Positions 6,231-36,311 of a stretch of DNA of 59,801 nt are shown in pieces. The notes under the pieces were generated by a model that had not been told where the DNA came from, did no database searches, and was given only the letters and a program-made list of their open reading frames with translations. How positions within the stretch are numbered: position 1 is the stretch's first letter; the number at the start of each line of letters is the position of its first letter. The DNA comes from Vineibacter terrae (GTDB taxonomy: Bacteria > Pseudomonadota > Alphaproteobacteria > Reyranellales > Reyranellaceae): the NCBI RefSeq assembly GCF_008039615.1, contig NZ_VDUZ01000052.1, forward strand, positions 1 through 59,801, given 5' to 3'. The translations under genes and the position numbers were made by a program.

Positions 6231-6266
6231 CCTGTACATGCCCAGCGGACCTATCGTTCAGCGCGC

Positions 6267-9417: not shown

Positions 9418-9539
9418 CTCCAATCCGGACGAGGCGGTAAACCGGCTTCCGACGGGGTACCGAGCACGAATTCGCGTACGCTTACTTTTCCCGGCGATCC
9501 CCTTTGGAAGGTCTCATCGGCTTCATCGCCTGTTCGGCA

Positions 9540-10025: not shown

Positions 10026-10043
10026 TCGCCCCCTATCAAACAG

Positions 10044-10245: not shown

Positions 10246-10346
10246 CCCTCGCCGCGACTGTCGGCTCTTCGACGCCGGTACGCCGCGCCAGCCGCAGGCC
10301 GGTATCGCGACGCCGCTCCCGACTTGCTTTCGACATTCGCAGTCCA

Positions 10347-10556: not shown

Positions 10557-10579
10557 GATTTTACACTCCTGCCGTTCGT

Positions 10580-12193: not shown

Positions 12194-12207
12194 GTAGTAT
12201 CCCAGAT

Positions 12208-13304: not shown

Positions 13305-13373
13305 AGCTTCTGCTCCTTCGACTATCTGCCCGGCTCGTCTATCCCGATACAGATACCGGGGGCTGCTCTGGCT

Positions 13374-14030: not shown

Positions 14031-14205
14031 GGTCCGGTTTCTTCTAGATACAGTAAGGGTAACGGAGTGGCGGCGAGGGCGGAGCCTCCGGCGGCAGCTC
14101 ACTTAGCCAGCGTAGTGTGAGATTGTCCGTGATGATATTCTCCGTCCCGGCCCCTGCCTTGCTGACAAAGGGGTGGGTGGGCGGATGGCCTCCGTGCCCC
14201 CAAGT

Positions 14206-14421
14206 TTAGGATTTCTCCGGTGTGGGCTGGCGATGGCGCTCGTTCCAACTTTTCTCGACTTTCAGTCGTTCTTCAGCCGTCGCCTTCCTGCCCGTCAGGC
14301 GCTCGTAGCGCGCCATCAGACTGTCGACGGTCATCAAGTTGCCGGCTAGCAGGGCCAGTTCCGGCTTGCCGTCGCCCTTTGAACTTTCTGCCATCCCTGC
14401 GTTCTTTCCTGTCAGCGGCAT
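14206..14421 (-). CDS. Small unknown protein
   Basis: This frame of up to 71 residues contains LMARYERLTGRKATAEERLK and a hydrophilic tail; helical, with no family recognised. An in-frame ATG at 14394 would give 62 residues. It sits immediately left of the perfectly duplicated block that starts at 14537 and is not itself duplicated. Confidence 0.4.
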   Translation of the reverse strand: MPLTGKNAGMAESSKGDGKPELALLAGNLMTVDSLMARYERLTGRKATAEERLKVEKSWNERHRQPTPEKS

Positions 14422-14539
14422 CCAGGGGCCGCATCGAGGACGACGCGAGCTGTCGCCCCAGCAAGTAGTGGCACCCCGCCCACGAATACACCGTGGAACC
14501 GCTCATACTGCGCATGAACGTCGGTCATACCGGGCTCGC

Positions 14540-14809
14540 TCAGAACTTCAGGCGCTTAAGCCGCTGGGCACCGGTGATGATCGCACCGTCGTCTGAGACG
14601 ACGAGATAGGCATCCAGGCGGTCGGCGATGCGGGCGAACATCCGCTCTCCAAGCTCGCGCCGAGCGTGAAGCCGGGCTTTTTTGTTCATGAAGATCACCT
14701 CGGCGCCGAGGTGCCGTCCCTGCCGGCCGTAGTCCAGCAGGACGTCAACGACTTCCTGCTGGATCCCGCGCTGGCGGCAGCGCGCGGCCCCATGTGCTGT
14801 GTATTTCAT
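14540..14809 (-). CDS. DUF4258-like small protein, copy 1
   Basis: This 89-residue protein starts MKYTAHGAARCRQRGI, the H..R..QRGI signature seen in DUF4258-type proteins, followed by VVDVLLDYGRQG, a basic stretch (NKKARLHARRELGERMF) and a C-terminal DAYLVVSDDGAIITGAQRLK sheet. The fold is reminiscent of RelE-like small proteins, but catalytic residues cannot be assigned. AGGGGG five bases before the ATG gives a firm start. It is divergent from the WYL regulator with a shared 126-base promoter region. The product is identical to that at 34920. Confidence 0.7.
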   Translation of the reverse strand: MKYTAHGAARCRQRGIQQEVVDVLLDYGRQGRHLGAEVIFMNKKARLHARRELGERMFARIADRLDAYLVVSDDGAIITGAQRLKRLKF

Positions 14810-14853
14810 GACGCCCCCTCAAACCCATCCGGGACACGGGATACCGCAGGCTA

Positions 14854-14870
14854 GTGACAAAACCTGTCAC
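14854..14870. promoter_or_regulatory. GTGACA-N5-TGTCAC operator candidate, copy 1
   Basis: A perfect 6-5-6 inverted repeat lies midway between the divergent starts of the DUF4258-like gene (14809) and the WYL gene (14936). WYL-domain regulators commonly bind such sites in their own promoter, so autoregulation is likely. The second identical copy is at 35234-35250. Confidence 0.55.
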
Positions 14871-14935
14871 CCTTGGCACAACGGTGCTGGGGGTGGACGC
14901 CAGCGAGCTTGCTGGGCGCCCAGAGGTTCGTTCTC

Positions 14936-15931
14936 ATGTCCTTCTCGAAGGCCGAGCAGCTTCTCGATGCAGCGACCATGGCGTCGGGCCGACTGCAAGG
15001 CATCACCATCGACGATGTCATGTCCCGGTTCAGGGTCGCTCGGCGCACGGCCCAGCGGTTGCTGCACACGCTTGAGGCACACTTCCCCGACGTAGAGACA
15101 CATCTCGACGACGAGGGCCGGAAGCGCTGGCGGTTGCCGCCAGCTCATCTACGGGATCTGCTGACTCTGTCCCCGGAGGAACTGGCGGCTCTGGACCTGG
15201 CGGTCACCGCCTTGAAGCGCTCGGGAGCCAGGGTGGAAGCCCGCCACCTGACCACGCTGCGGGAGAAGATCCTGGCGCTGGTCCCTCGTTCCCGGGTCGC
15301 CCGGCTGGAAACCGATCACGAGGCCCTGCTGCAGGCGCAGGGACTTGCCGCCCGACCTGGTCCGCGGCCCCGCACAGATCCCAAGATTGCCGGCGTTGTC
15401 GCAGAAGCGATCAAAGCCTGCTGCCTCCTCGATATACAGTACCGTTCACGCGGCGAAGCGAAGGGGCGCCGGCGACGGATTGCACCCTATGGCGTCCTCT
15501 CGGGCCTGCGGCGATACGTGGTCGGCAAGCCGGCCGACGCTTTGGACGGGCCGGTCCGGCTCTTCCGTTTCGAGGCGATCACGTCCGCATCGCTCACCAA
15601 GACAGCGTTCGTGCGACCGTCGGACTTCAGCCTTCAGGATTTCGCGGACCGCGCCTTCGGCACTTTCCAGAATGAAGAGGAATACGGCCAGGTCGTCTGG
15701 CGCTTCTCCCCTGCCGCGGCTGACCAAGCCCGCGAATTTGAGTTCCACCCGCAGCAGACAATGGAGATTGAGGCGGACGGCTCCCTGGTCGTTCGGTTCA
15801 AAGCTGCGGGCCATTTGGAGATGGTGTGGCACCTCTACTGCTGGGGCGACAAGGTGGAGGTGATCGCGCCCGAGCGGCTGAGGAAGTTGTGCGAGGCGCA
15901 TCGGCGTGGGGATTTTCCGGCGATGCCGTAG
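14936..15931 (+). CDS. WYL-domain transcriptional regulator, copy 1
   Basis: This 331-residue protein starts MSFSKAEQLLDAATM; the frame upstream of this ATG is probably untranslated. The N-terminal helix-turn-helix (about 1-60) contains GITIDDVMSRFRVARRTAQR. The middle WYL domain (about 140-230) has IQYRSRGEAKGRRRRIAPYG and RYVVGKPADA at ligand-binding positions. The C-terminal WCX region (about 245-331) follows. WYL proteins respond to nucleic acid or nucleotide ligands and often regulate phage-defence or DNA-damage genes. The last 75 or so residues are homologous to copy 2 but clearly different. Confidence 0.88.
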   Translation: MSFSKAEQLLDAATMASGRLQGITIDDVMSRFRVARRTAQRLLHTLEAHFPDVETHLDDEGRKRWRLPPAHLRDLLTLSPEELAALDLAVTALKRSGARVEARHLTTLREKILALVPRSRVARLETDHEALLQAQGLAARPGPRPRTDPKIAGVVAEAIKACCLLDIQYRSRGEAKGRRRRIAPYGVLSGLRRYVVGKPADALDGPVRLFRFEAITSASLTKTAFVRPSDFSLQDFADRAFGTFQNEEEYGQVVWRFSPAAADQAREFEFHPQQTMEIEADGSLVVRFKAAGHLEMVWHLYCWGDKVEVIAPERLRKLCEAHRRGDFPAMP

Positions 15932-23188: not shown

Positions 23189-23690
23189 ATGTCCGCTTCT
23201 GGCCCAAAGCGGACATGCCTTTGTCCTACGCCAATGTCCGTTTTTGGGGCAACGCGCCATAGCCTTGCCTGCATCGGTAGGACCTGTCTATGAGTACGCG
23301 CCCTAGGACGCTGTCGGACGTCTTTCCCTCTCACAGGAACCTGACAGGCATCACGTTCAGCCAGACTGCGGGACCACGATCGACGCGCTGGTCGCCGAGA
23401 TCGTTAACCTGTCCATGCCTCAGTGGCCCATGTCCGACGATGATCTCGCAGCTCTCCCCGGTCTTCATCCCTGAGGTGATTGCGGCCCTCGGGAGGCTTC
23501 CCTTGCAACCCCATGCATCGGGTCCCGGGTGCGATTGGTAGCGGTCTTTCCGACTGCTATCCTTCGCCGTCGTCCTTATATTCCCCCTAACGGCAATCCT
23601 TCTCCAGCATGGATTCTTTTTTTCTCAGACTTCTCAAAAATACAGCTACTGATCACTACCTATGACGACGGCGACGGCACCCACCCTAGA
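23189..23690. repeat. Dispersed degenerate repeat, copy B block 1
   Basis: This block matches copy A from 2761: the palindrome ATGTCCGCTTCTGG...CGGACAT, AACGCGCCATAGCCTTGCCTG, the MSTRPRTLS frame at 23290, ATGTCCGACGATGATCTCG, then GTGCGATTGGTAGCG and CTACTGATCACTACCTATGACGACGG. It interrupts the array of substrate-binding genes between 23045 and 25069. Confidence 0.75.
23290..23541 (+). pseudogene. Repeat-borne small ORF, copy B
   Basis: The frame MSTRPRTLSDVFPSHRN, GITFSQTAG is shared with copy A. After GITFSQ the protein-like continuation is in another frame (TTIDALVAEIVNLSM, then WPMSDDDLAALPGLHP and stop), suggesting a single indel in a once continuous gene of about 65-70 residues. No function known. 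Confidence 0.35.
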
Positions 23691-23960
23691 GAGATCGACG
23701 TCCCGTTCGCGCTCATCCGGTTCGCCTCTGCGTTCGACGTTGACGCTGGCGAGCTGATGGCTAGGGCGTTCGCCGACTATGCCCGCCTGGTGCTCCTGGC
23801 GATCGGCCGCAGGTTCTCGTGGGAGCCGTTCGGTCGGGAGCAGTCCATGATGAACTTCATCCGTGACTTGAACGATGGCGATGTACCGGATCTCACCCAA
23901 GAGCCCACGCTGCTGGTGAAGCTTGAGGCCGCCTTCGAGACGCACAACGCCGAGCGGTAG
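23529..23960 (+). CDS. Small conserved unknown protein, paralogue of the 0.9 kb protein
   Basis: The confident part is the last 85 residues (VPFALIRFASAFDVDAGELM to KLEAAFETHNAER), which align with the 910-1212 product. The true start is uncertain: the frame is open back to an ATG at 23529, but residues before the shared part overlap the dispersed repeat and look non-coding. Where the paralogue has GTG, this copy has GTC. It is helical and probably cytosolic; no family recognised. It lies between repeat blocks 1 and 2, like cargo. Confidence 0.5.
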   Translation: MRLVAVFPTAILRRRPYIPPNGNPSPAWILFFSDFSKIQLLITTYDDGDGTHPREIDVPFALIRFASAFDVDAGELMARAFADYARLVLLAIGRRFSWEPFGREQSMMNFIRDLNDGDVPDLTQEPTLLVKLEAAFETHNAER

Positions 23961-24042
23961 GCGGGCGGACAAAGGCGTGGTAGCGGTTACTTTCGGCGTA
24001 ACCTATATTGAATGAAGCCATCGGCGGAGGGAGTCGGACGAT

Positions 24043-24207
24043 ATGGCTGAGAAACCCGCCACCCTCGACAGCATCTGCGAGATGCTCCAGGAGGTGCTTG
24101 AGCACCAACGGGTGATCCGGCAGGACTTACAAGAGTGCATCGTGATCTGTGACCGAATCATCGAGACGTTTGAGGATAGGCGCAAGCTGGGTGATTGGCG
24201 CACTTGA
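24043..24207 (+). CDS. 54-residue helical protein with strong ribosome-binding site
   Basis: GGAGGGAG about nine bases before ATG at 24043 starts a frame encoding MAEKPATLDSICEMLQEVLE, then HQRVIRQDLQECIVICDRII and a short tail to TGA at 24205-24207. It is amphipathic and coiled-coil-like. It follows the 23.9 kb gene by 82 bases on the same strand and is the second cargo gene between the repeat blocks. No family recognised. Confidence 0.55.
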   Translation: MAEKPATLDSICEMLQEVLEHQRVIRQDLQECIVICDRIIETFEDRRKLGDWRT

Positions 24208-24249
24208 AGGCACCTGATCATACTGTAATGCCGACGGTGCGATACCGGC

Positions 24250-24400
24250 CTCCTGCGGCGTATCTGGAGTATCCGGGTCACACCGGATTTCCCGGAAAAC
24301 TGGCACCATCCTGCCCATAGGAACGCTGCCGTTCTAGGACTTCCATGCCCCTGCGGTACATGGCGCCCTGTCGACCCGTTCCCGGATCGCGGACCATAGT
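24250..24400. repeat. Dispersed degenerate repeat, copy B block 2
   Basis: GGATTTCCCGG, CTGGCACCATCCTGCCC, AACGCTGCCGTTCTAGGACTTCC and CGGTACATGGCGCCCTGTCG match about 3380-3490. The following 24401-25069 has no convincing gene. It contains a short match to copy A near 24895-24955, and on the minus strand near 24990-25025 a fragment reading LKEAKALLNELAAARG that resembles the tail of the bL12-like protein at 48033. Confidence 0.6.
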
Positions 24401-25069
24401 CATTTTTGAAAGTGTCACTGGAGCGGGAACGATCGCGAATTTGCCCCTCCACCCATCTCTGCGCGGTGCAAGGCGAGATCATCAGCGAAGCGCGGTCCAA
24501 TGGCGCGTTCGATCTACACCAATCAGGGGCAAGCGGTGTGACACTGCGCTGGGGAAAGGACAGGTTCGACACCCGGCTCAGTCGAGCACCTATCTACTCG
24601 ACGTCCAGCTTGTCGCCCGTCCTAGGCAACCCTTCCAGCGAAACGGCTGCACGGGATCAAGGAGATTTAGAAGAGTGGCAGACTCTGACAAGTTGGGGCG
24701 GGATGCGCGGTGCAGGGCGCACCGTCTAAGCGCCGTTGACACCTGTTGGTGTGAGTTCGATTTTCGCGCGGTCCCGCAAGGGCTCCCCGCGTACGTCCCT
24801 AGCCCCTTCCCTTTGTAAAACCTTCCCTCAACCGTCCACCACTCTGCATGAGCAAGAGGGACCGGGAAGGCGCGACCTTGGTATTGGATCCGATGGGCTG
24901 AGGCCGGCGATCGGTGGAGTGGCTTAGGTGCCATGGCCGGGCGCCGGTGGACTGTCTTCCGTGGTTCGGCGAGGCCTCTCGCCGCAGCCAGCTCGTTAAG
25001 CAGCGCCTTCGCTTCTTTCAGGTCGGGACGTCGAAACCCCGGGTGAGTCAGCCGTAGGATTGCGCCGCC

Positions 25070-26077
25070 TCATTCGATCACCTCGTCGGCGCGGGCGAGG
25101 ATGGCGGGCGGGATAGTGAGGCCGAGCGCCTTCGCAGTCTTGAGGTTGATGACGAGTTCCAACCTGTCCATCAACCGGATCGGCATATCCGCCGGCTTCT
25201 CGCCCCGCAGCACGCGCACGATGTAACCCGCGATTAGTCGCCCCTGCTCCCTCGTGTCAATGCCATACGACATCAGTCCACCCACCTCGGCGATGTCGCG
25301 AAAACTGTTGATCGTCGGCAACCGGCTGGCGGTGGCCAGTTCGACGATGAACTGCCGGTGGAAGAAGTTCTCAGGCGAGCCCGCGACCAGCACCGTGTCG
25401 ATACGCAGATCGGGCATGGTAGCGAAGGCGCGCCGGTACGCCGGTGGCTGGACCGGATCATCCAGCAGCGTCGCGATCAGGGTCACGCCCAGCCGTGAAG
25501 CGGCCTCGCGAACTGGACGTCCATACACGCTGTCCCAGTAAGCGTGTGGGGCGAGATAGGCGATCCGGGTTGCGGCTGGGATCGCCTCGCGCAGCAACTC
25601 GAGACCCTTGCTGTCGATCTCCCCTGCACCGAAAGCGGCGCTGACACCGGTCACATTACGGCCCGGTCGCGACAGGCTGTCAGCTAGGCCGGCCTGCACC
25701 AGACTCGAGCCGCTGACGACGATGGGGATGGTCGCCGTCGCGGCCTGAAGGGCTTGAGCGGGTAGGGGCGAAAACGTGACGATCACATCGGGCTTCGTGC
25801 CCGCGACGTCGCGCGCGAGGGCCGGATAGCGCTGGATCTCGCCTCGGGCTGACCAACGTTCGACAATCAGCGTCCGCCCTTCTTCGTAACCGAGCCGGCG
25901 CAGCTCGCTGAAAAGCCCGCTGAAGTTGCGACTTGCGTTCTCGGTTATGTCAGCCTCGGGGCTCGTCGTCGTCATCGCAAAGATGGCGAGACGAGGCAGA
26001 CGCCCGGTCTGTGCCCCTGCCATCCGTGGGACGGCGAGGGCCGCAAGCATTGCGGCGAGAGCACGCCGGCCGATCAT
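25070..26077 (-). CDS. ABC-type substrate-binding protein (PF04392), array member 3
   Basis: This 335-residue exported protein has leader MIGRRALAAMLAALAVPRMAGAQ. Landmarks are LRRLGYEEGRTLIVERW, GTKPDVIVTFSP, AGLADSLSRPGRNVTGVS and the shared C-terminus LVINLKTAKALGLTIPPAIL, ARADEVIE. The start overlaps the stop of member 2 by ATGA. At its own stop an ATG in a new frame (25071-25073) reads MRRRN, the start of a further array member cut off by the repeat cassette, so the array was once continuous here. Confidence 0.9.
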   Translation of the reverse strand: MIGRRALAAMLAALAVPRMAGAQTGRLPRLAIFAMTTTSPEADITENASRNFSGLFSELRRLGYEEGRTLIVERWSARGEIQRYPALARDVAGTKPDVIVTFSPLPAQALQAATATIPIVVSGSSLVQAGLADSLSRPGRNVTGVSAAFGAGEIDSKGLELLREAIPAATRIAYLAPHAYWDSVYGRPVREAASRLGVTLIATLLDDPVQPPAYRRAFATMPDLRIDTVLVAGSPENFFHRQFIVELATASRLPTINSFRDIAEVGGLMSYGIDTREQGRLIAGYIVRVLRGEKPADMPIRLMDRLELVINLKTAKALGLTIPPAILARADEVIE

Positions 26078-27057
26078 TCGATCACCTCGTCGGCGCGGGC
26101 GAGGATGGCGGGCGGGATCGTGAGGCCGAGCGCCTTCGCCGTCTTCATGTTGATGGCAAGACGGAACGTCGTTGGCTGTTCCACCGGCAGGTCGCCGACG
26201 GCCGCGCCCTTCATCAAACGGTTGACGTAGCTGGCTGCGCGTCGAAACAGCACATTGAGGTCAGTCGCAAAAACCATCAGCGCGCCGTCCATAGCACCCT
26301 CCAGATGGGTCAAGAGAGCCGGCAAGCGGTGCTGCAAAGCAAGATCGACCAGCCGCTTCCGATGAACAAACGTCGTAGCATCCGGCAGCGCGACGACAGC
26401 GTCGGCCCGGGCTGTCTTCATCCTTGCAAAGCTCGACGCGAAATCATCGGGGTCGCGAAAGGCCACGGGTATCAGCTTAATCCGAAGCCTGTGGGCAGCG
26501 GCTTCCGCCTCCCCCATCATCGCGGACTGCCACGGCGAGGATTCATTCCAAAGCACGGCAATCCGTGCTGCACCTCCTACAACATCGGCCAGGAGCTGCA
26601 GGTACTTTCCGATGATCTCGGGGCCGGGAAGCATTGTAATGCCTGTGACATTTGCCTCAGGCCGCGCGAGATTAGTTACCAGACCGGTGCTCAGCGGGTC
26701 GGGAGTAATAAACAGAATGGGAACTTGCGTGGTCGCAGCCTTCGCAGCGTGCGCCGTCTGACTTGTGACGGTAACGATCACGTCCGCGGGAAGGCGAACC
26801 AGCTCTGCGGCTAGCTCCGGCAGCAACTCAGGGCGCCCCAGAGCCCAGCGAAACTCGATCATATATTCGCGCCCTTCGACATGACCGAGCATGCGCAGGC
26901 CTTCGCGGAAACTGTCCTGCAGTCGGGCGCCGTCCGGCGTGGGCGACCCGGGAACGAGCCACCCGATCCGGTACATGCGCCTTGCAGTCTGTTCCCTGGC
27001 GTCGACCGGCGCGGCAAACCAGGCGGCACACGCAGTCAGGAGTACCCGCCGCCTCAT
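26074..27057 (-). CDS. ABC-type substrate-binding protein (PF04392), array member 2
   Basis: This 327-residue protein has a short leader (MRRRVLLTACAAWFAAPVDA), then YRIGWLVPGSPTPDGARL, LRMLGHVEGREYMIEFRWA, LPADVIVTVTSQ, DPLSTGLVTNLARPEANVTG and the C-terminus INMKTAKALGLTIPPAILA. Overlaps of ATGA on both sides mean translation of the array is coupled. Its ligand is unknown; sequence divergence between members outside the shared C-terminus suggests different ligands. Confidence 0.9.
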   Translation of the reverse strand: MRRRVLLTACAAWFAAPVDAREQTARRMYRIGWLVPGSPTPDGARLQDSFREGLRMLGHVEGREYMIEFRWALGRPELLPELAAELVRLPADVIVTVTSQTAHAAKAATTQVPILFITPDPLSTGLVTNLARPEANVTGITMLPGPEIIGKYLQLLADVVGGAARIAVLWNESSPWQSAMMGEAEAAAHRLRIKLIPVAFRDPDDFASSFARMKTARADAVVALPDATTFVHRKRLVDLALQHRLPALLTHLEGAMDGALMVFATDLNVLFRRAASYVNRLMKGAAVGDLPVEQPTTFRLAINMKTAKALGLTIPPAILARADEVIE

Positions 27058-28127
27058 TCTATCACCTCGTCGGCGCGGGCAAGGACGGCGAATGGGATGG
27101 TGATGCCAAGAGCGCGCGCCACCCGGAGGTTGACGATCAGCTCGAATGCCGTCGGCTGTTCGACCGGGAGGTCCGCCGGCTTGGCACCCTTAAGAATCTT
27201 ATCGACATACACGGTGGCACGTCGGGCTATCTGACGCAAATTCGGGCCGTAGCCGATCAGACCGCCGCTCGCCACGTAAGCACGGCCAGGGAATACAGAC
27301 GCAAGACGGTTCTGAACGGCGAATTCAGCTATCTGTCCGCGATTGCTGAGGATTACAGTGTCCTGAATAGCGATCAGGCCGTCGGGCTTGTTCTTTGCGA
27401 TCTCGCTCAGACCATCAGCAAGATGATCGGCTGACTCGACGCTTACCGTGTAAAACTGAAAGCCCAGTGTACTCGCAGCAGCCTCTGTGGCACGGATGTC
27501 CGCAGCCGAGGCGGCGTTTTGCAGATTGCCGAGGATCGCGATACGCCGGAACGTAGGGATGATCTCACGGAAGAGATCGAGCCGCTTCCCGCTCACGTCG
27601 GGGTACATTAACGACATGCCAGTGATGTTGCCGCCCGGCGACGCCAAGCTTGTGACAAGCCCGACCCCAACCGGATCTCCCGGAAACAGCATTACGATCG
27701 GGATCGTGGTTGTTGCCTTCTGGAGGGCGAGCCCTTCGCGCGTGCCCGGGGCTATTAAGGTGTCGACTCGTAGCCCAACCAACTCTGCCGCCAGCACTGG
27801 GAGGCGTTCAATCTTTCCCTCAGCCCACCGGGCCTCAAGTCTCAGGTTCCGACCTTCATCGTATCCTCGCTCGCGCAAACCTTCCAATAGCGGATCAACC
27901 GCAGGATGTGCCGTTCCCCGGACAGGGGCAAGCCCCTCCCCCAGCAGCCCGACCCGCCATACCTTCGTCGCGGGCTGCGCCGACGCCAGCAGCGGGCGCG
28001 CTATCACCGCACCGACAAGCAGACTGATGACCTCGCGCCGCTCGATTACTCGATAGCCTGGCCGGCACACAGCACCGGCGCTGGGCTGGTTCAGCCCGCG
28101 CTTCGTCGGCCAGTTGGCGATGTCCAT
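27054..28127 (-). CDS. ABC-type substrate-binding protein (PF04392), array member 1
   Basis: This is the promoter-proximal member. The leader core ERREVISLLVGAVIARPLLASA is intact, but the codon where relatives have ATG before IERRE reads GTA. The frame is open upstream to ATG at 28127, which has GGGGAGG three bases before it, so the protein may carry an unusual N-terminal extension of about 26 residues. Landmarks are LRERGYDEGRNLRLEARWAE, DPVGVGLVTSLASPGGNITG and ELIVNLRVARALGITIPFA. A still longer frame reaches 28187. Export efficiency with this extension is uncertain. Confidence 0.82.
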   Translation of the reverse strand: MDIANWPTKRGLNQPSAGAVCRPGYRVIERREVISLLVGAVIARPLLASAQPATKVWRVGLLGEGLAPVRGTAHPAVDPLLEGLRERGYDEGRNLRLEARWAEGKIERLPVLAAELVGLRVDTLIAPGTREGLALQKATTTIPIVMLFPGDPVGVGLVTSLASPGGNITGMSLMYPDVSGKRLDLFREIIPTFRRIAILGNLQNAASAADIRATEAAASTLGFQFYTVSVESADHLADGLSEIAKNKPDGLIAIQDTVILSNRGQIAEFAVQNRLASVFPGRAYVASGGLIGYGPNLRQIARRATVYVDKILKGAKPADLPVEQPTAFELIVNLRVARALGITIPFAVLARADEVIE

Positions 28128-28525
28128 GAGCCTCCCCCCGAGGCCCTCCCTCACCTGGAGAGTTGCGCTTATCGGCAGCCTCGTCAACTACCTCCCAAGT
28201 ATCGCCTGTCCCGAACCGTGCTCTTCGACACTATCACACTTCGCCTTCCGCTGACGCACTTCGCCGCCCGACACCGACTCACCCCAGCGCTACATTGAGA
28301 TCACGACACGAGCGCGTCGCAGGTGTTGGCAGCGGGGAAGGCCATGATGACGAGGGTAGAACCATCACTTCGGGTTACCGAGAGCCGGTCCGCCGCTTGC
28401 CCCATGGAGGCCCCAGGTGGTCGAACGGGATCGACCCGAGCCGTCCCTACGTGAGCACTGCATCTGCCGCACCGACCGCCAGCGCTAGCCTTTCCCTGAC
28501 AGCCAACCACAAGGAGATCCTAACT

Positions 28526-28918
28526 GTGCCCGCCGCCCTGAAGTTCCACGAGGTCTTCGCCGACCTCATCGACCGCAGCCCCCTCACCCAGCGCGAAATC
28601 GCGACCAAGCTGGGCTACGACAGGCAGAACATCGTTTCGATGTTCAAGTCGGGCCAGGCGAAGGTTCCGATCAACAAGATCGGCCCCCTTGCCCGCATCC
28701 TGGAGGTCGACGCCGTGTGGCTGTTGCGTCGCTGCCTTCAGGAATATCACCCGGATCTGTGGGCCGTTTTGGAGGATACGCTTGGACCGCGGGTTACAGC
28801 GCACGAGGTCGAGATCCTGACGGCGCTGCGGGTGGCGACGGACGACATGGATCCTCGCCTCAGCACGCCGAGTGCCAAGGCGAAGGTGAACGAACTCGCA
28901 ATCGCGCTCACTACTTGA
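28526..28918 (+). CDS. XRE-like helix-turn-helix regulator, copy 2
   Basis: This 130-residue protein starts at GTG 28526 with AAGGAG ten bases upstream. The frame is open much further upstream, but conservation with copy 1 begins at this GTG. Helix-turn-helix LTQREIATKLGYDRQNIVSM, then KVPINKIGPLARILEVD. It differs from copy 1 at about ten positions, including AALKFHEVF against ARKFHEIL at the N-terminus. It precedes the intact S1/P1 nuclease gene on the same strand. Confidence 0.87.
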   Translation: MPAALKFHEVFADLIDRSPLTQREIATKLGYDRQNIVSMFKSGQAKVPINKIGPLARILEVDAVWLLRRCLQEYHPDLWAVLEDTLGPRVTAHEVEILTALRVATDDMDPRLSTPSAKAKVNELAIALTT

Positions 28919-28976
28919 GCGCACGGTATGGGCACTAAGCCACAGACAAATGTGACATCGCAGCCTGTTGGCGAAG

Positions 28977-29084
28977 ATGAGCGCCATGCGCGCACCGTTC
29001 AGGGTGATCATCATCGGCACTGGCCTGCCTCCGGGAGACTACTGCGTGACCGTTGGCCAGCCGACGGTGGACTCCACCTCGTGA
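28977..29084 (+). pseudogene. Possible N-terminal remnant of an FAD-binding oxidoreductase
   Basis: The frame MSAMRAPFRVIIIGTGL resembles the dinucleotide-binding start of flavin monooxygenases (VIIIGxGL) and then stops within 36 codons. The same position in copy 1 (5730) reads MSAIRAPFRVVGIGAGL. The weak conservation may be chance; no other part of such an enzyme is present. Confidence 0.25.
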
Positions 29085-29148
29085 TTGTCCTCAATCGAGG
29101 CGTTGCGGAATGATGCACACGACCAGCACAGGCTCAGGGACCCCGCAC

Positions 29149-30180
29149 ATGAGCTCAGATCGTCCCAGGCGAACCGCTCTCACCCTCCTCAGCGTTGCGC
29201 TGCTCTCCGTCACCGGCGGTGACAACGCCTGGGGCTGGGGCGCTACAGGCCATGAGCTGGTCAGTGGCATCGCCGCCGAACAACTCCCAGCCGTTCTACC
29301 GGCCTTCCTGCGCACCCCAGAGGTCGCTGCCGAAATCGCCGTCCTCGGCCGGGAACTCGACCGCTCCAAAGGCGCTGGCAAGACCCACGACGCAGAGCGT
29401 GACCCCGGCCACTACATCGACCTGGACGACGAAGGCTCGGTCTTCGGCATCCTGCCGTTGAGCCGATTGCCCCCGACCCGGGAGGAGTACGACACGCTGC
29501 TCCGGCAGGGTGGCTTCACCCAATACAAGGCTGGCTATCTGCCCTACGCCATCATTGATGGCTGGCTTCAGCTCAGGAAGGACTTCGCCTACTGGCGCGC
29601 CGACGTGGTGGGAGCGCGCACTGCAACGGATCCAGCCGAGAGGGTCTGGTTCGAGGCTGACCGTGTCCTGCGCGAGAAGCTGATCATCCGCGACCTCGGC
29701 GTCTGGAGCCACTACATCGGCGACGCCAGCCAGCGGATGCATGTCTCGATCCACTTCAACGGCTGGGGACCCTACCCTAATCCGAAGAACTATTCGACGT
29801 CGAGCAGCCTGCATGCCTTCTTTGAGGGTGCCTTCGTGTGCAACTACGTCGACCGCACCGCCGTGACCGGCGCTGTACGACCCTACCGCGACTGCGGCTG
29901 CTCTATCGAAGAACGCACGCGCACCTATCTGCTGGGGACTCAAGCTCAGATCGTGCCGCTGTATGAGCTCGAGCAGACCGGCGAATTCAAGAGCGCCACG
30001 CAGGCGGGCCGTGACTTTGTGGTCCAACGCCTGGCCGCCGCCGTTTCGGAGCTCCGCGACATGATCGTGGATGCCTGGACCGATAGCCCCAATGCGACGG
30101 TCGGATACCCTGAAAGGCGCTTGCGCGACATCGAGGCAGGAACGGTCGTGCTCACGAGAGCCATGTTCGGTGCCGACTGA
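29149..30180 (+). CDS. Secreted S1/P1-type nuclease
   Basis: This 343-residue protein has a signal peptide ending near DNAWG. The mature chain would start WGATGHELV, giving the N-terminal Trp and His (Trp30, His35) that bind the trinuclear zinc site in this family. Further ligands fit PGHYIDLD and WSHYIGDASQRMHVSIHFNG. S1/P1 enzymes hydrolyse single-stranded DNA and RNA and 3'-phosphates outside the cytoplasm, perhaps for phosphate scavenging. AGGGA eight bases before ATG 29149 marks the start; an upstream extension to 29053 lacks support. Cysteines in AFVCNYVDRT and RDCGCS may form disulphides. It is convergent with the helicase operon. Confidence 0.9.
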   Translation: MSSDRPRRTALTLLSVALLSVTGGDNAWGWGATGHELVSGIAAEQLPAVLPAFLRTPEVAAEIAVLGRELDRSKGAGKTHDAERDPGHYIDLDDEGSVFGILPLSRLPPTREEYDTLLRQGGFTQYKAGYLPYAIIDGWLQLRKDFAYWRADVVGARTATDPAERVWFEADRVLREKLIIRDLGVWSHYIGDASQRMHVSIHFNGWGPYPNPKNYSTSSSLHAFFEGAFVCNYVDRTAVTGAVRPYRDCGCSIEERTRTYLLGTQAQIVPLYELEQTGEFKSATQAGRDFVVQRLAAAVSELRDMIVDAWTDSPNATVGYPERRLRDIEAGTVVLTRAMFGAD

Positions 30181-30287
30181 GGCGAGATTGATCACACTGT
30201 CCGAGCACGACTTGGCTTGATCAATCAAGGAGCGAGTCGATCGCCCTGAGGCTCTCGGCGAGCCTGTCGGTGCCGTGGTCCGGCCTC

Positions 30288-33140
30288 TCACTCTCGAGTT
30301 CGAGCGTACCCACAATCGGCGACCGCCAAGTGTACCAGTCCGTTCGGATGTTTGAAGCGTGTAGCCGCGGCTCCAAGCTGGCGGTCTGCCTCCTTTACGA
30401 GGGCAGCATATGTGGTCGCACGTCGCTTGCGTTCCGTGTGCGGTACGGGTGCGGATCTCAATGGCGACGTCAGCCACTCGGCAAGGAACGATGGATTCTT
30501 CTGGACGTGCCCGTCGCCTGCAACGAAGAGTGGCAGGAACTCTTCCGTCAACGGCTCCCCCTGGTCGTTTTGCCACCGTAGCTTGAAGACGCCAAGCGCG
30601 CCTTCCACGCCTAGGGGGCATGCTGCCGACGCATACTGCCCATTGAATCCATACGATTGCGCCGTCTCGATCAGATAGCGAAAGAACGGTGCCTCGAAGT
30701 CCAGCAAAACAGCGTCTTTCAGTCGCTGCGCCAGCCGCCGGTCTGTGGTGATGCGCACAGAAGTCCGTTGTGCGAACTCGGGAAACTGACCGCGCAGGGC
30801 TTCCGGCAACCGAATCTCCAGAAGAGCGCCGTCATGGAGCATGGCCGTCGTTGTCGCGCCAACCAGCGGTAACATGCCCCGGATGAAGAGCCCGACGTGA
30901 CCCATCGTGAAACCCAGGGTGCCCCGCAGCGCATTTGGATCGTATCCCGACACGTGAGCGAAGATTTCCTGCTGCAAGTCCTGAGCGGTCTGCGCCCGCC
31001 GGATAGCCTCGTCGATCTGATCCCGTGTGCGCTCTATCTCCATCGATCTGGCGGCCTCGAGCACCGAGGCGAAATCTATTCTCTCAAGGATGTCGCCCAG
31101 AATCTCAGCATACAAACGCTCGTTGTACTCCGATCCGACGGGTGCCATGTCCTGGACGATCTGCAGCACACGTCCCAACATCAGATCGATGGCGGCATTG
31201 TCGAAGCTATCACGGGCATGGAGGTTGAAAACAATGACTGTCTCCCGCTGACCGTAGCGATAGAGACGACCGATGCGTTGCGCCAGACGCGCCGGGTTCC
31301 ACGGCAGATCGTAATTCACCATCACATGGCACGACTGGTGCAGGTTAAACCCTTCGCCGCCCGCCTCGGTCGATACGAGAAACCGTGCTGGGCCGTTAAA
31401 GTGCCCTATAGCTTCGAGCTTTTCTGCCAGCTTCATGGACCCATTGATGAGCACGACGCCGTCTGTGCCAGGCGCGTAGCGAGACAGGGCTTCTTTCAGA
31501 TAGCTCTGCGTCGCGCGGTACTCGGTGAAGACAAGCAGCTTCTTCCCCTGAGTGACCACCGGCTCGACGACTTGCTTCAGGAAGAGTTGTAGCTTTTCGT
31601 CGGAACGGCGCACGCCTGCAGCATGCTCCAGCAACTGTGCGATCAGATCCCTTTCGTACTCGAAGAATTCACGCGCGCTCGTCGCTGAAATCGAGCCGCC
31701 CAGGTTGTCCTGGTGATCGCCACCCTCGGCGAAGTCTTCGTCCCATTCCTCGACGGAGCTTCCGTCCGATGAATGCGCCGGCGCGGCATCCGTCAGCCGC
31801 TCGAGTCGCAGCCTCAGCGCTTGCTCGATCGCCGCAATGCTCGAGGATGCGAGCTTGCGATAAGTGGTCATCACGAACCCGACGGCGCGGCCAGCCGCTC
31901 CGCCAGTCTCTCCGGCCTTGTAGCCACGACGCAGGTAGCCCCGAAGCCGGTCCTGGAACTCGACCGTCGCCGCTGAAGGAGGCACTGGAACCCGGTGAAC
32001 CTGCGTCCCCTTGAAGATGAAGTTGCCATCCACGTCTGTGACGTCCCGCTTGCGGTTGCGGAGGATCATCTCGCCGACAATCTCCGGGTTGGCTTCAACC
32101 GTATGTATCTCCCGCTTCAGATCGGGCCGCACGAGTTCGAGCAATGCCAGGAAGCGATCGACATAGCCCTGGTGCGGCGTTCCGCTGAGCAGCAGGAATA
32201 CATCGGCAGACTGCCGCAGCATCTCGGCAAGGCGATAGCGTTGCGTACGTTCACCGCTGGCCTGGCGCGACAGCTTGTGGGCCTCGTCGAATACCACGAC
32301 ATCCCAGCCACCTGACTGGCCCAGCAGCCGCATATGCTCATCGCGTTTGGCGAGGTCGAGCGACACGATCACATGGTCATGCAGTTTCCAGTGATCAGGA
32401 TCAGCAATTCTGAAGTCCAGGCCATACACCTCGTAGATTTGGTCGAACTTGTATTTCATCTCGTCTTGCCACGGCCGCGTGATGCCGGCAGGTGAAATGA
32501 TCAGCACGCGACGTGCCTGCCCCTTGCGCTTCAGCGCTGCAAGCAGAAGACCGACCTCGATCGTTTTTCCGAGGCCGACATCGTCTGCGATCAACCAGTT
32601 GTAGTTACCGGAACTGAGGATGCGATGCACGAGCTGGATCTGGTGTGGGAGAGGATCGACGTCGAGCCGATCCAAAGACCCGGTAAGCTGGTTCCAGTTC
32701 TCCAGTGCATGGGCGAGGAGCCGAAGGCGGAAGCGCTCGGCGTGGTCGGGCACCGTGGTTTCGGCACGTTTATAGCGCAGCTCGACATCTTTGAACCGCA
32801 CCAAATTCTCGTAGGGCAACCATACCGATTGCCCCGTTGTGTCTAGCTGCACAAGCACCTGATCGCGGCCGCCTAGTGTGCGGTATGAGATGACACGTCC
32901 CGGACCAAGGGTGCTGCGCGTTGTGGATCGGGGATAATCCTGGACTGCCCAGCCTGGCTGCAGGCCACATCGGAGATCGCTCAGCGCAGTCCATTCGGCG
33001 GGTGTACCAGGCCGCCACTCGATCTTGAGTTCCCATCGGCCGCTGTTGCTTCGGCTCCCCCGTACGCGACCGACCTGCGACCCATCGCTGCGCCGCCGAA
33101 CCCAGCAGCCGTTAACGGGAACAAGTTCCTCTGCCAACAT
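30288..33140 (-). CDS. SNF2/RapA-type helicase of a two-gene operon
   Basis: The protein has 950 residues from ATG 33140 (AGGA five bases upstream; the frame extends four codons to a TTG). A beta-rich N-terminal part (about 1-120, GPGRVISYRT, VWLPYENLVRF) precedes a SNF2 ATPase with DDVGLGKTIE (Walker A, about 189-193), VVFDEAHKLS (motif II, about 285-288), LLLSGTPHQG and a C-terminal helicase lobe with LVSTEAGGEGFNLH and AQRIGRLYRYGQ. A C-terminal domain of about 250 residues follows with no recognised family. It is a double-stranded DNA translocase by family. Similar helicases occur in DISARM (DrmD) and Dpd loci, but none of their other genes is present. Its gene follows that of the acidic partner after 46 bases. 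Confidence 0.88.
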   Translation of the reverse strand: MLAEELVPVNGCWVRRRSDGSQVGRVRGSRSNSGRWELKIEWRPGTPAEWTALSDLRCGLQPGWAVQDYPRSTTRSTLGPGRVISYRTLGGRDQVLVQLDTTGQSVWLPYENLVRFKDVELRYKRAETTVPDHAERFRLRLLAHALENWNQLTGSLDRLDVDPLPHQIQLVHRILSSGNYNWLIADDVGLGKTIEVGLLLAALKRKGQARRVLIISPAGITRPWQDEMKYKFDQIYEVYGLDFRIADPDHWKLHDHVIVSLDLAKRDEHMRLLGQSGGWDVVVFDEAHKLSRQASGERTQRYRLAEMLRQSADVFLLLSGTPHQGYVDRFLALLELVRPDLKREIHTVEANPEIVGEMILRNRKRDVTDVDGNFIFKGTQVHRVPVPPSAATVEFQDRLRGYLRRGYKAGETGGAAGRAVGFVMTTYRKLASSSIAAIEQALRLRLERLTDAAPAHSSDGSSVEEWDEDFAEGGDHQDNLGGSISATSAREFFEYERDLIAQLLEHAAGVRRSDEKLQLFLKQVVEPVVTQGKKLLVFTEYRATQSYLKEALSRYAPGTDGVVLINGSMKLAEKLEAIGHFNGPARFLVSTEAGGEGFNLHQSCHVMVNYDLPWNPARLAQRIGRLYRYGQRETVIVFNLHARDSFDNAAIDLMLGRVLQIVQDMAPVGSEYNERLYAEILGDILERIDFASVLEAARSMEIERTRDQIDEAIRRAQTAQDLQQEIFAHVSGYDPNALRGTLGFTMGHVGLFIRGMLPLVGATTTAMLHDGALLEIRLPEALRGQFPEFAQRTSVRITTDRRLAQRLKDAVLLDFEAPFFRYLIETAQSYGFNGQYASAACPLGVEGALGVFKLRWQNDQGEPLTEEFLPLFVAGDGHVQKNPSFLAEWLTSPLRSAPVPHTERKRRATTYAALVKEADRQLGAAATRFKHPNGLVHLAVADCGYARTRE

Positions 33141-33186
33141 CGTGTTCCTCAAACCAGGATCGGTTCACCAAAAGCATGAGAAGACC

Positions 33187-34503
33187 CTACCGGGACCGAT
33201 ACCACCACCAGTAACCATGCTTGTGCCAGGCCAAATCGTCTTGCAACTCCCTGCAGTCGCCATCGGCCCGATCCAGACACATCCGGTACCGAGGTGGTGC
33301 GGCTTCCAGCCTGGCGACCCTGATCTCCACGTACATTGGGAAGTAACGATAGCCACGATCCTGGGGTGAGAGGGCAAGCCAATCCTCGAACCAGCTCTCA
33401 TCGATCATGTCTTCAACTGCATAGTCGGACCGGATGCGACAGATCCGAAGTGCAAGCGCCCATGTGAGGGCCGAACGGCCATGCCGCAGGGTGTGAACCC
33501 GGGTGCTCCACTGCATCTTGTCGAACCTGCGCCCTACCCACCATTCCGGGCGCTCAAGCCACACCTCTCGCAGTGAAACCATGGCATCTAGCTCTTCGGG
33601 TGTCATGCCCTGATCGACCGCGGCCGAGAACGCGCGGAATGTCGAAGCGTGTGGCAGGCTCGTGAACAGCTCCGAGAGATAGTCAAGCAGAGCTTGTACA
33701 TCTGCTTGCCGCACTATTCCGTGCATCTTGGCAACGATAGCTGCCGCCTTCTGGCGGGCTCGGGGCGGTACGACGACGTCTTCGGACTCGAACTCCCAGG
33801 GCCGGTGCCGCGCCCCCGGATCGTAGTCCGAGATGCCAAAGTCGAGGTCTCGATCACTGTCAGTGCTTGCAGAGGTGCTCAGCAGATCAGACGGGTCTTC
33901 GTCCAGTTGATCAGCTTTGGCAGGGTCGACGAATCCTTGAATGTCTTCGTCCTCAATCTCCCGGAACTGTAGAGCGGTTTCGCCTGGCCCATCGTCTTCT
34001 CCGTCGTTCAGGTCATCGATCGAGCTCGACGGGTTCTGCAGACTCGTCGCCTCCGCGTCAGCTTCGATGGCGTCGCATTCCGCTTCTGCCAAGTCCTCCC
34101 AACCCACCTTGATTCCCGCTTCCACAGCGGATTCACGAGGATCGTCTTGAGCAGCATCGCCGGTCCCGATTGCGCCCAACACCACACCGTGCGATGTTTC
34201 TGCCTCGCTTTCCACGCATCCGGTTCCAGACAAAGACGAACTTGCGCCGGTCTCGCCAAGTTCCTCTGGCTTTTCGGAGGCAGGCACGTTGCCCTCGGGC
34301 TGTTCCCCAGTAGGAACGGTACGAGCGCAATCTCCCTCAGCAGACCACGGGTCGGTGACGACGGGTTCGGGGCTTGGGGAAACACGATAGTCTTCGGGCA
34401 GCCAAGCGCCGTGCGTCGCCTCCGCTTGTCCATGGGATCGACCTGGGAGGGTCGAATCCGATTGCGACCACAGTCGCCTTAGTCGTTTCAACAGGGAGCG
34501 CAT
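33187..34503 (-). CDS. Acidic two-part protein, partner of the SNF2 helicase
   Basis: The 438 residues divide in two. About 1-235 is low-complexity and strongly acidic (SSSIDDLNDGEDDGPGETAL, DEDPSDLLSTSASTDSDRDL) and probably disordered. About 240-438 is a compact, Trp/Arg-rich domain with RARQKAAAIVAKMHGIVRQA, MVSLREVWLERPEWW, RRFDKMQWSTRVHTLRHGR and WFEDWLALSPQDRGYRYFPM. I recognise no family and no catalytic motif. It is the first gene of a two-gene unit with the helicase. The acidic tail could mimic DNA or hold the partner off DNA, which is inference only. The start ATG at 34503 lacks a clear ribosome-binding site. Confidence 0.75.
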   Translation of the reverse strand: MRSLLKRLRRLWSQSDSTLPGRSHGQAEATHGAWLPEDYRVSPSPEPVVTDPWSAEGDCARTVPTGEQPEGNVPASEKPEELGETGASSSLSGTGCVESEAETSHGVVLGAIGTGDAAQDDPRESAVEAGIKVGWEDLAEAECDAIEADAEATSLQNPSSSIDDLNDGEDDGPGETALQFREIEDEDIQGFVDPAKADQLDEDPSDLLSTSASTDSDRDLDFGISDYDPGARHRPWEFESEDVVVPPRARQKAAAIVAKMHGIVRQADVQALLDYLSELFTSLPHASTFRAFSAAVDQGMTPEELDAMVSLREVWLERPEWWVGRRFDKMQWSTRVHTLRHGRSALTWALALRICRIRSDYAVEDMIDESWFEDWLALSPQDRGYRYFPMYVEIRVARLEAAPPRYRMCLDRADGDCRELQDDLAWHKHGYWWWYRSR

Positions 34504-34700
34504 GAGCCGTCGTTGCTTCGTGCCGACACAGCGGTCGTTGTAGCGTCGTCCCGCAAGGCAGTTGAAAAACTTGCCCTTCTCCGGACCGTCGCTTTGTTCA
34601 ACCAGCCGCTTTATTAGATCTGTGAGGCAAAACCCAAGGGCGAGCAGGAGTTTACCCCAATTCCCCGGCCTGCTGCCAAAACATAGTATTCATATCGTCC

Positions 34701-34715
34701 ATGAAGATCGTTCAT
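34701..34715. promoter_or_regulatory. ATGAA-N5-TTCAT palindrome, site 3
   Basis: ATGAAGATCGTTCAT has perfect five-base arms. It lies about 200 bases upstream of the helicase operon's first gene and touches the 3' end of the RmuC remnant. It compares with 6279-6293 upstream of the other helicase. Confidence 0.35.
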
Positions 34716-34894
34716 TTTGCCTCACGAGGCCGATCGTGCTCTGCCCGGATCAGGACAGCCGCTTCCTGTGGCGTCAACGGCACGGCTGCCTGCATGCGAC
34801 GCAAGCGTACCCACGACAGGATGCCGAACAGGGCCGCGATCGCGCCCAGGCCGAGCGCGATGATGAGCATGATCTCGGTCACGTTAACCCCCAA
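34712..34894 (-). pseudogene. N-terminal remnant of an RmuC
   Basis: The 60 residues correspond to the RmuC membrane anchor and beginning of the coiled coil: IMLIIALGLGAIAALFGILS, WVRLRRMQAAVPLTPQEAAV, RAEHDRPREAK. The intact protein has IMLFTALVLGALAALFGVLA and LTPQEAATLLRAEHDR. The frame then stops. It lies 22 bases from the left end of repeat copy 2, so the rearrangement that placed the DUF4258/WYL module here also truncated this rmuC copy. Confidence 0.85.
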
Positions 34895-34919
34895 CTTCGA
34901 TGGTGCGAGCCGTCGCCGC

Positions 34920-35189
34920 TCAGAACTTCAGGCGCTTAAGCCGCTGGGCACCGGTGATGATCGCACCGTCGTCTGAGACGACGAGATAGGCATCCAGGCG
35001 GTCGGCGATGCGGGCGAACATCCGCTCTCCAAGCTCGCGCCGAGCGTGAAGCCGGGCTTTTTTGTTCATGAAGATCACCTCGGCGCCGAGGTGCCGTCCC
35101 TGCCGGCCGTAGTCCAGCAGGACGTCAACGACTTCCTGCTGGATCCCGCGCTGGCGGCAGCGCGCGGCCCCATGTGCTGTGTATTTCAT
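34920..35189 (-). CDS. DUF4258-like small protein, copy 2
   Basis: The product and DNA are identical to the 14540-14809 gene, with the same AGGGGG-led start and the same divergent arrangement with a WYL gene. Here the downstream neighbour is the RmuC N-terminal remnant instead of the small protein at 14206. Confidence 0.7.
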   Translation of the reverse strand: MKYTAHGAARCRQRGIQQEVVDVLLDYGRQGRHLGAEVIFMNKKARLHARRELGERMFARIADRLDAYLVVSDDGAIITGAQRLKRLKF

Positions 35190-35233
35190 GACGCCCCCTC
35201 AAACCCATCCGGGACACGGGATACCGCAGGCTA

Positions 35234-35250
35234 GTGACAAAACCTGTCAC
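35234..35250. promoter_or_regulatory. GTGACA-N5-TGTCAC operator candidate, copy 2
   Basis: This is the same inverted repeat as 14854-14870, placed identically between the divergent genes. A regulator made from either WYL copy has the same DNA-binding domain and so should bind both sites. Confidence 0.55.
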
Positions 35251-35315
35251 CCTTGGCACAACGGTGCTGGGGGTGGACGCCAGCGAGCTTGCTGGGCGCC
35301 CAGAGGTTCGTTCTC

Positions 35316-36311
35316 ATGTCCTTCTCGAAGGCCGAGCAGCTTCTCGATGCAGCGACCATGGCGTCGGGCCGACTGCAAGGCATCACCATCGACGATGTCA
35401 TGTCCCGGTTCAGGGTCGCTCGGCGCACGGCCCAGCGGTTGCTGCACACGCTTGAGGCACACTTCCCCGACGTAGAGACACATCTCGACGACGAGGGCCG
35501 GAAGCGCTGGCGGTTGCCGCCAGCTCATCTACGGGATCTGCTGACTCTGTCCCCGGAGGAACTGGCGGCTCTGGACCTGGCGGTCACCGCCTTGAAGCGC
35601 TCGGGAGCCAGGGTGGAAGCCCGCCACCTGACCACGCTGCGGGAGAAGATCCTGGCGCTGGTCCCTCGTTCCCGGGTCGCCCGGCTGGAAACCGATCACG
35701 AGGCCCTGCTGCAGGCGCAGGGACTTGCCGCCCGACCTGGTCCGCGGCCCCGCACAGATCCCAAGATTGCCGGCGTTGTCGCAGAAGCGATCAAAGCCTG
35801 CTGCCTCCTCGATATACAGTACCGTTCACGCGGCGAAGCGAAGGGGCGCCGGCGACGGATTGCACCCTATGGCGTCCTCTCGGGCCTGCGGCGATACGTG
35901 GTCGGCAAGCCGGCCGACGCTTTGGACGGGCCGGTCCGGCTCTTCCGTTTCGAGGCGATCACGTCCGCATCGCTCACCAAGACAGCGTTCGTGCGACCGT
36001 CGGACTTCAGCCTTCAGGATTTCGCGGACCGCGCCTTCGGCACTTTCCAGAATGAAGAGGAATACGGCCAGGTCGTCTGGCGGTTCGCACCGGCTGCGGC
36101 AGAGCAGGCAAGGGAATTCGAGTTCCACCCCCAGCAAGTCGTCGAAGAGGAGAAGGATGGCTCGCTGATCGTGCGGTTCAAAGCGGCCGGGCACCTTGAG
36201 ATGTGTTGGTTTTTATATTCGTGGGGAAACCAGGTGGAGGTGCTCGCGCCCGAGCGGCTCAGGCGCATGTGCGCGGCGCATCGGCGTGGGGATTTTGCGG
36301 CGATGCCGTAG
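35316..36311 (+). CDS. WYL-domain transcriptional regulator, copy 2
   Basis: This 331-residue protein is identical to copy 1 through EYGQVVWRF and then diverges over the last 75 or so residues (APAAAEQAREFEFHPQQVVE against SPAAADQAREFEFHPQQTME; CWFLYSWGNQVEVLAPERLR against VWHLYCWGDKVEVIAPERLR). The difference falls in the C-terminal region that tunes ligand response or assembly in WYL proteins. Thus the two regulators should bind the same DNA but may answer to different signals. The start was chosen at MSFSKAEQ. Confidence 0.87.
   Translation: MSFSKAEQLLDAATMASGRLQGITIDDVMSRFRVARRTAQRLLHTLEAHFPDVETHLDDEGRKRWRLPPAHLRDLLTLSPEELAALDLAVTALKRSGARVEARHLTTLREKILALVPRSRVARLETDHEALLQAQGLAARPGPRPRTDPKIAGVVAEAIKACCLLDIQYRSRGEAKGRRRRIAPYGVLSGLRRYVVGKPADALDGPVRLFRFEAITSASLTKTAFVRPSDFSLQDFADRAFGTFQNEEEYGQVVWRFAPAAAEQAREFEFHPQQVVEEEKDGSLIVRFKAAGHLEMCWFLYSWGNQVEVLAPERLRRMCAAHRRGDFAAMP

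Follow-up and report, generated by a model that had tools for sequence, protein, structure and literature searches.

The 59,801-nucleotide contig NZ_VDUZ01000052.1 of Vineibacter terrae (the whole of this stretch is called the window here) carries two adjacent genes on its minus strand, the first for a 438-residue protein, referred to as the partner, and the second for a SNF2/RapA-like helicase. We found that the two genes occur together almost without exception in related loci, and we propose, with a probability of roughly 0.55, that they form one mobile self-contained module, most likely engaged in the control of invading DNA (phage or plasmid). The initial annotation of this DNA had described a complete SNF2/RapA-type translocase next to a 438-residue partner as a candidate undescribed two-gene system. 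Both genes are present where it placed them, the helicase motifs are intact, and its view of an undescribed system agrees with the near-obligate pairing, with a partner of no known family and with the lack of a description in the open-licence literature.

A species-level genome collection was scanned with a five-row helicase alignment, and the best 80 of 193 confirmed related stretches were taken as the set of 80 loci; the work on domains, N-terminal regions and distances used a set of 82 partners or pairs. A six-frame search with a hidden Markov model (HMM) located a homologue of the partner directly upstream of the helicase, on the same strand and once per locus, in 78 of the 80 loci, and the remaining two begin at a contig end. 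The estimated gap between the two genes ranges from −55 to +141 bases over the loci and is 46 bp in the window, from the partner stop to the helicase ATG. Clustering by plain BLAST placed 66 of the 80 loci in three partner families (37, 17 and 12 loci), the rest being linked by the HMM, and profile comparison joined the families at probabilities of 98.6%, 98.1% and, for the weakest link, 73.6%. A domain HMM built from the window's own cluster recovered 81 of the 82 partners in the first round and all 82 in the next, and these proteins therefore share a domain; the recovery is not an independent discovery, since the set was gathered by related HMMs. The final domain HMM gave no match in 103 other stretches. 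Of these, 19 were random regions and 84 contained other helicases: 72 viral loci that carry helicase relatives (some of them distant, and 10 of the loci with less than 1 kb upstream), nine stretches from six places in the window's own genome, one plasmid and two other helicases.

The pair is rare. In a class sample of 385 genomes, the helicase reached at least 1290 bits in four (G161, G241, G256 and the window's own genome), the next best score being 416 bits; the partner was found at E < 1e-35 in the same four genomes and adjoins the helicase in each. The co-occurrence that the initial annotation had suggested checking is thus observed, and a helicase without its partner, whose wide occurrence it had named as the opposite outcome, was seen neither among the 80 loci nor in the class sample. 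In the order, the pair is present in 2 of 76 genomes. Among 75 genomes of the same family searched at E 0.01, partner matches were the window, G069 (E 2.8e-20) and G031 (E 0.002), the last rejected as spurious, as it contained an internal stop and was not recovered again. In the class sample, a fifth partner match, in G090 (E 2.5e-4) with no helicase match in the same stretch, was taken as chance.

With the partner as query, 72,556 plasmids gave no match at E 0.001. With the helicase as query, three plasmid relatives (L017, L018 and L019) had 43–47% identity over 90–95% of the length, and the identity of further matches dropped to about 30%; each of the three has the partner domain encoded in the gene immediately preceding the helicase (524, 1300 and 1315–1327 residues). 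The carriers are Nitrosococcus halophilus, in whose plasmid the pair is located near dsr1, and two Deinococcus species. Overall, the pair occurs under eight phylum labels. The helicase tree mixes phyla, and the window groups with alphaproteobacterial, Gemmatimonadota and Latescibacterota rows, many of which are metagenome bins.

The two genes are also inherited together. Over the 82 pairs, helicase distances and partner-domain distances were correlated with r = 0.874, and none of 2000 permutations gave a value as high. Helicase and partner have therefore not been reshuffled, although shared ancestry would give the same correlation. In addition, we compared 16 close locus pairs, chosen by the authors from close helicases, on both strands at E 1e-5. 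Six of them (L018/L019, L059/L061, L041/L047, L060/L067, L037/L040 and L074/L076) showed no similarity past the SNF2 and partner genes and about 170 bp, except that the last also shares a gene for a 219-residue protein.

The conserved domain of the partner is predicted to be helical with one beta hairpin and contains eight Trp residues in the window protein; across the family, its near-invariant residues are two Trp only. The AlphaFold2 model of residues 225–438 had a mean predicted local distance difference test (pLDDT) value of 86.6, with most core blocks above 90. A Foldseek search with this domain against the Protein Data Bank (PDB) and viral structures returned no match at E 0.001, and the VIA-align rows were at noise level. 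The window partner had no Pfam, NCBIfam, PADLOC or PDB match, and the 82 partners together matched no family except TPR, ankyrin, zinc-ribbon and isolated weak matches, in line with the earlier statement, in which no family was recognised for this domain. SMC models were matched by one of the 82 partners.

The region ahead of the domain, on the other hand, is highly variable. Its length ranges from 1 to 1164 residues, the shortest values being contig-end cuts or uncertain starts, and it contains zinc ribbons in two members, ankyrin repeats in one and, judged by a single model, TPR pieces in as many as 12. It is net acidic (>0.1) in 62 of the 78 partners in which it spans 50 residues or more. 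The acidic half noted in the initial annotation is accordingly present in the window and in most of the family, and is missing from the two Deinococcus partners (L018 and L019), which are about 1300 residues long with a long N-terminal region that is not acidic. In all 52 close pairs with a comparable N-terminal region, which overlap and are not independent, the identity of this region was below that of the domain; median identities in close pairs were 0.38 for the N-terminal region, 0.64 for the domain and 0.80 for the helicase. Two short motifs, W..[DE]D[FYL] and DPW, recur in this region, each in 16 of 82 members, where shuffling gave means of 0.8 and 2.2–2.3, respectively; both were counted over related sequences that are not independent, and they may be docking motifs. 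An apparent swap of N-termini between L046 and L049, an impression at the DNA level, was rejected: L049 begins at a contig end, and L041, L047 and L048 share the TPR-like start of L046. The difference between these two N-terminal regions is read as fast change, not swapping.

The helicase motifs DDVGLGKTIE (residue 190), DEAH (289), LSGTPH (322), STEAGGEG (594) and QRIGRLYRYGQ (625) are all intact, and the motor motif residues are invariant across an alignment of 38 helicases. The AlphaFold2 model, obtained from 38 alignment rows, had a mean pLDDT of 81.3 and matched RapA (6bog) in Foldseek at E 3.8e-31 over most of its length, with modest TM-scores of 0.36–0.44 for full-length RapA entries. 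In the model, the predicted strands of the N-terminal beta units span residues 17–62 and 69–119; their likeness to the Tudor pair of RapA, for which the available part of one paper uses the term “tandem TUDOR” (PMC12839542), is one of placement. The invariant columns of the C-terminal region, read by eye in the helicase alignment, contain no conserved (D/E)xK-type nuclease motif. The best PADLOC profile was BrxHI|BrxHII (324 bits, E 7.4e-97), a type of model that also matches other SNF2 helicases; BrxHII (E 2.9e-75) and DrmD (284 bits) were matched too. The best NCBIfam equivalog was DrmD, at 307.6 bits against a cut-off of 610, and the RapA equivalog gave 164.9 bits against 576, so that neither was reached.

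To describe the genomic neighbourhood, we tabulated the operons of the related loci and found no third gene that recurs widely. The commonest is a protein of about 219 residues (cluster 7) near the pair in seven loci (L074, L076, L078, L081, L084, L086 and L089), which are Alcanivorax-type loci and one Dyella; the single member scanned had no PADLOC match. The recurrent neighbour clusters include a type I methylase (8 loci), a type III-like methylase (7), a type III-like nuclease (6), WYL genes and type I specificity genes (5 of the 80 each), a large type IIG/DrmMI-like methylase (4) and, with three loci each, a Helicase_II/MzaC-like gene and a GajB-like UvrD gene. Eleven defence probes matched 23 of the 80 family loci (24 by clusters) and none of 19 random regions in tblastn, a comparison that is biased toward the family loci because the probes were taken from them. 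At E 1e-10 in PADLOC, 110 neighbours sampled from 697 open reading frames (ORFs) matched 277 families, and 110 random proteins (of 123 drawn from 267) matched 43. Two genes close to the pair in the loci L062, L068 and L069 looked “McrBC-like” by eye; the one scanned gave PDC-S14, PDC-S02 and REase_II, and the name was dropped. In L097 (12988–14082), a gene that looks Cas1-like by eye lies directly downstream of the helicase.

In a close relative, G069, the pair has a methylase nearby. On its contig (L021), an integrase-like gene and others are followed by an AIPR-like gene, the partner and the helicase, and then by genes for an HKD-SNF2 helicase, a methylase of the Eco57I type, a RecD-like PDC-S68 protein and a PLD protein. 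The AIPR-like gene (Pfam E 0.0019, short of the cut-off), the partner and the helicase overlap by 4 bases each. The locus (G069:C13, L012/L013) is an island in which the integrase-like gene and a gene we take to be VapE/primase-like stand beside this AIPR-to-PLD gene row; the row is a candidate multi-gene defence system. The absence of a methylase, to which the initial annotation had drawn attention, therefore describes the window and not every relative: among the PADLOC matches listed for the 31 other window ORFs (the best 25 of 65 families), there was no DrmA, DrmB, DrmC, BrxC, PglZ or methylase, whereas in L021 the pair precedes a helicase and a methylase of the Eco57I type.

Taken together, the context and the distribution suggest a role in defence, and the partner looks like an adaptor made of one conserved domain and a variable arm. 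A translocase aimed or gated by its partner is favoured because the motor is RapA-like, no nuclease was recognised and the partner is adaptor-like. In such a mechanism, the conserved domain would dock on the helicase, and the variable region, whether an acidic arm or pieces of the TPR, ankyrin, zinc-ribbon or SMC-like type, would sense a trigger or a host factor, or would restrain the motor. Once released, the motor would walk on duplex DNA and strip proteins, for example polymerases, or replication or packaging complexes, from the invader. Because no nuclease was recognised in the pair, clearance would rest on the eviction of proteins, or on nucleases of the same cell. A fuller version, which we put forward tentatively and consider doubtful as a whole, is a nuclease-free two-gene defence in which the partner holds or aims the RapA-like translocase, the acidic arm senses infection or imitates DNA, complexes on the invader are stripped, and the adaptor has an unrecorded fold.

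Several observations weigh against a mobile defence module. Among the 16 close pairs, seven share their flanks as well, as expected of close relatives; in L062/L070 and L068/L070, the similarity covers the pair and a displaced upstream piece of 0.7 kb, with nothing downstream to compare, and L072/L080 are alike but leave no room upstream. Fifty-seven of the 80 loci contain no recurrent defence probe; the restriction-modification neighbours, which speak for the DNA defence proposed in the initial annotation, are present at part of the loci, and two loci (L022 and L025) appear by eye to be set among metabolic genes. The PADLOC figures count families and not proteins, and one operon can match many; moreover, one type I restriction match and several broad “mads” matches turned up in the random regions as well, which are all of the window's class. 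A disordered linker would diverge quickly without any arms race, and a role in transcription would suit a RapA-like architecture too. Finally, the defence function is read from genomic context, and contact between helicase and partner is conjectural.

Among the closest known systems is Type 3 BREX, through BrxHII, a RapA-like SNF2 helicase of about 940 residues according to the accessible part of PMC12839542, and its profile is included in the best PADLOC match. The window partner is unrelated to this system, and BrxC, PglZ and a methylase are missing from the window matches listed. The same portion of that paper gives BrxHII one Tudor, in contrast to the two N-terminal all-beta units of the window helicase, and describes both BrxHII and the BR/Hma helicases as RapA-like with an inactive nuclease-like domain. 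The DUF499-centred BR systems (Hma) likewise have a SNF2 helicase, which contains a Tudor domain and is RapA-like in its C-terminal domain; in the text seen, however, they consist of three parts, the other two being a DUF499 ATPase and an N6-methylase (PMC12839542). In a locus of the window's own genome that resembles such a BR/Hma system by eye (G000:C39, L014; another SNF2-type locus with methylase-like and ATPase-like genes), the HMM did not find the partner domain. A further SNF2-type locus of this genome (G000:C11, L015) combines a gene for a WYL-like regulator with one for an HSP90-like ATPase, again by eye. DISARM shares the motor superfamily through DrmD, but the window helicase is at half the DrmD cut-off, and the window matches listed include no DrmA. 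ARMADA (ArmA-D) has a RapA/BrxHII-like helicase in a defence operon, and a methylase similar to its own lies within L041, L054, L081 and L083; these loci, however, carry another SNF2-type helicase too, and the accessible part of PMC12458937 names no such partner. One of them, L083, resembles ARMADA in that the pair (8085–12751) lies between a large methylase gene and a gene for 2194 residues, followed by a GajB-like gene.

Druantia type III (DruH-DruE) works in a comparable way: it too has two genes, one for a helicase and the other for the presumed sensor. DruE, however, is a helicase-nuclease of the YprA kind, and DruH is reportedly nuclease-active (PMC13192584, as far as its accessible text goes). 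A literature search for the SNF2 and partner pair found no description in open-licence papers, a scope outside which most subscription papers lie. We regard the pair as a new candidate for a defence module built on a SNF2 motor, with a partner family that is new as well. RapA-like SNF2 motors of Type-3 BREX, DISARM, ARMADA and Hma/BR sit beside methylases and other genes, which makes their own contribution hard to isolate; a widespread unit of one motor and one adaptor would allow a direct test of the motor's role. In addition, the pair would be a further candidate defence system, one for whose partner there is no model in PADLOC-DB 2.0.0, Pfam or NCBIfam, and whose conserved domain is one for which no matching fold was found.

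As an alternative, the pair might serve larger systems, of restriction or of the BREX/DISARM/ARMADA-like kind, as an accessory with no action of its own, the motor translocating for a methylase and a nuclease in trans and bare pairs like that of the window being remnants. The gene row of L021 agrees with such an arrangement, L041, L054 and L081 hold the same methylase cluster as L021 within the locus, and the type III-like methylase and nuclease clusters are found in seven and six loci. The added genes nevertheless vary from locus to locus with no third gene recurring widely, the shared unit is the pair in the six close comparisons above (one with the 219-residue gene), and the loci with the ARMADA-like methylase have a second SNF2-type helicase of their own, and we consider this explanation unlikely.

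We also considered a RapA-like transcription or chromatin-type factor with no part in defence, which would serve the cell or its mobile elements by releasing RNA polymerase that has stalled or by remodelling proteins bound to DNA. RapA is the closest solved structure to the window helicase, both by Foldseek and by PDB sequence match, and the two N-terminal all-beta units are as in RapA. RapA itself has a housekeeping role and is not known to have a partner, whereas presence in 4 of 385 class genomes and 2 of 76 order genomes is unlike a housekeeping gene; the score below the RapA equivalog cut-off and the restriction genes near part of the loci likewise make this explanation rather improbable. 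A function in the maintenance or competition of plasmids and islands (stability, or exclusion of rival elements) would agree with the presence of the pair on the Nitrosococcus halophilus plasmid and on the two Deinococcus plasmids, where it lies 3–5 kb from a replication initiator gene, and with the integrase-like gene in the island of L021. However, L025, L027, L032 and L036 (within the subset of the 80 loci with a stated replicon) are titled chromosomes, the helicase was unmatched in 50,697 phage records at E 1e-40, and none of the 72 viral loci contained the partner domain; a maintenance function is likewise rather improbable.

The layout of the locus is summarized in the table below. The helicase ORF as listed begins at a TTG (33152); its start is probably the ATG at 33140, because the closest homologue begins at that point. 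For the partner, ORF length alone is no proof of a gene because chance frames can be that long: in first-order Markov sequences of the same composition (30 runs), the longest open frame was 333 codons on average and 593 at maximum. The homologues in 78 of the 80 loci settle the matter.

Features of the gene pair and of its flanks (window coordinates; residue ranges refer to the protein named)
Feature	Coordinates	Strand	Basis or remark
Partner gene (438 aa), the first of the two	33187–34503	−	ORF; homologue directly upstream of the helicase in related loci
Basic N-terminal segment of partner, residues 1–13 (5 K/R, no D/E)	34465–34503	−	L104 and L062 begin alike; not family-wide
Acidic arm of partner, residues 14–233 (54 D/E, 10 K/R)	33805–34464	−	Residue composition
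Motif WLPEDY, residues 34–39, form W..[DE]D[FYL]	34387–34404	−	Family motif count
Motif DPW, residues 51–53	34345–34353	−	Family motif count
Conserved partner domain, residues 234–403	33295–33804	−	Present in 82/82 partners
SNF2/RapA-like helicase, 950 aa from ATG	30288–33140	−	ORF listing (30288–33152), Pfam, motifs, closest homologue
Two N-terminal all-beta units of helicase, residues 15–119 (954-residue numbering), positioned like RapA's tandem Tudor pair	32796–33110	−	Model and RapA 6bog match
SNF2 motor core, about residues 136–669	31146–32747	−	Pfam SNF2-rel_dom and Helicase_C; motifs
RapA-like C-terminal region, about residues 706–948	30309–31037	−	Model; invariant columns
Left flank	28460–29470		85% copy of 5219–6211
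Right flank, DUF4258-like (−) and WYL (+) genes	34917–36311		96% copy of 14537–15931
Stretch similar to the 5′ end of the presumed RmuC-like gene at 10580–12193, module edge	34731–34884	−	75% over 154 bp

The flanking genes named in the initial annotation fared unequally. The WYL/WCX regulator of the right flank is genuine (Pfam), but neither the “secreted nuclease” gene (S1/P1 E 0.014, Zn_dep_PLPC E 0.0043) nor the DUF4258 gene (E 0.014) reaches the Pfam cut-offs. In addition, the adjacency of the WYL gene is weak evidence in the window because this gene lies in a duplicated flank. A promoter scan found no promoter.

The flank copies belong to two blocks of the window, 2761–15931 and 23189–36311, which have a similar order and shared pieces (75–96% identity) and differ in their contents. 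The second block contains the SNF2 and partner pair; the first contains genes that we take to be a GajB/UvrD-like helicase, an SprT-like and an RmuC-like gene. The two blocks are a possible exchange hotspot. Among the 31 other window ORFs scanned, two matched the SduA (DUF4263) model, the better at E 5.5e-9.

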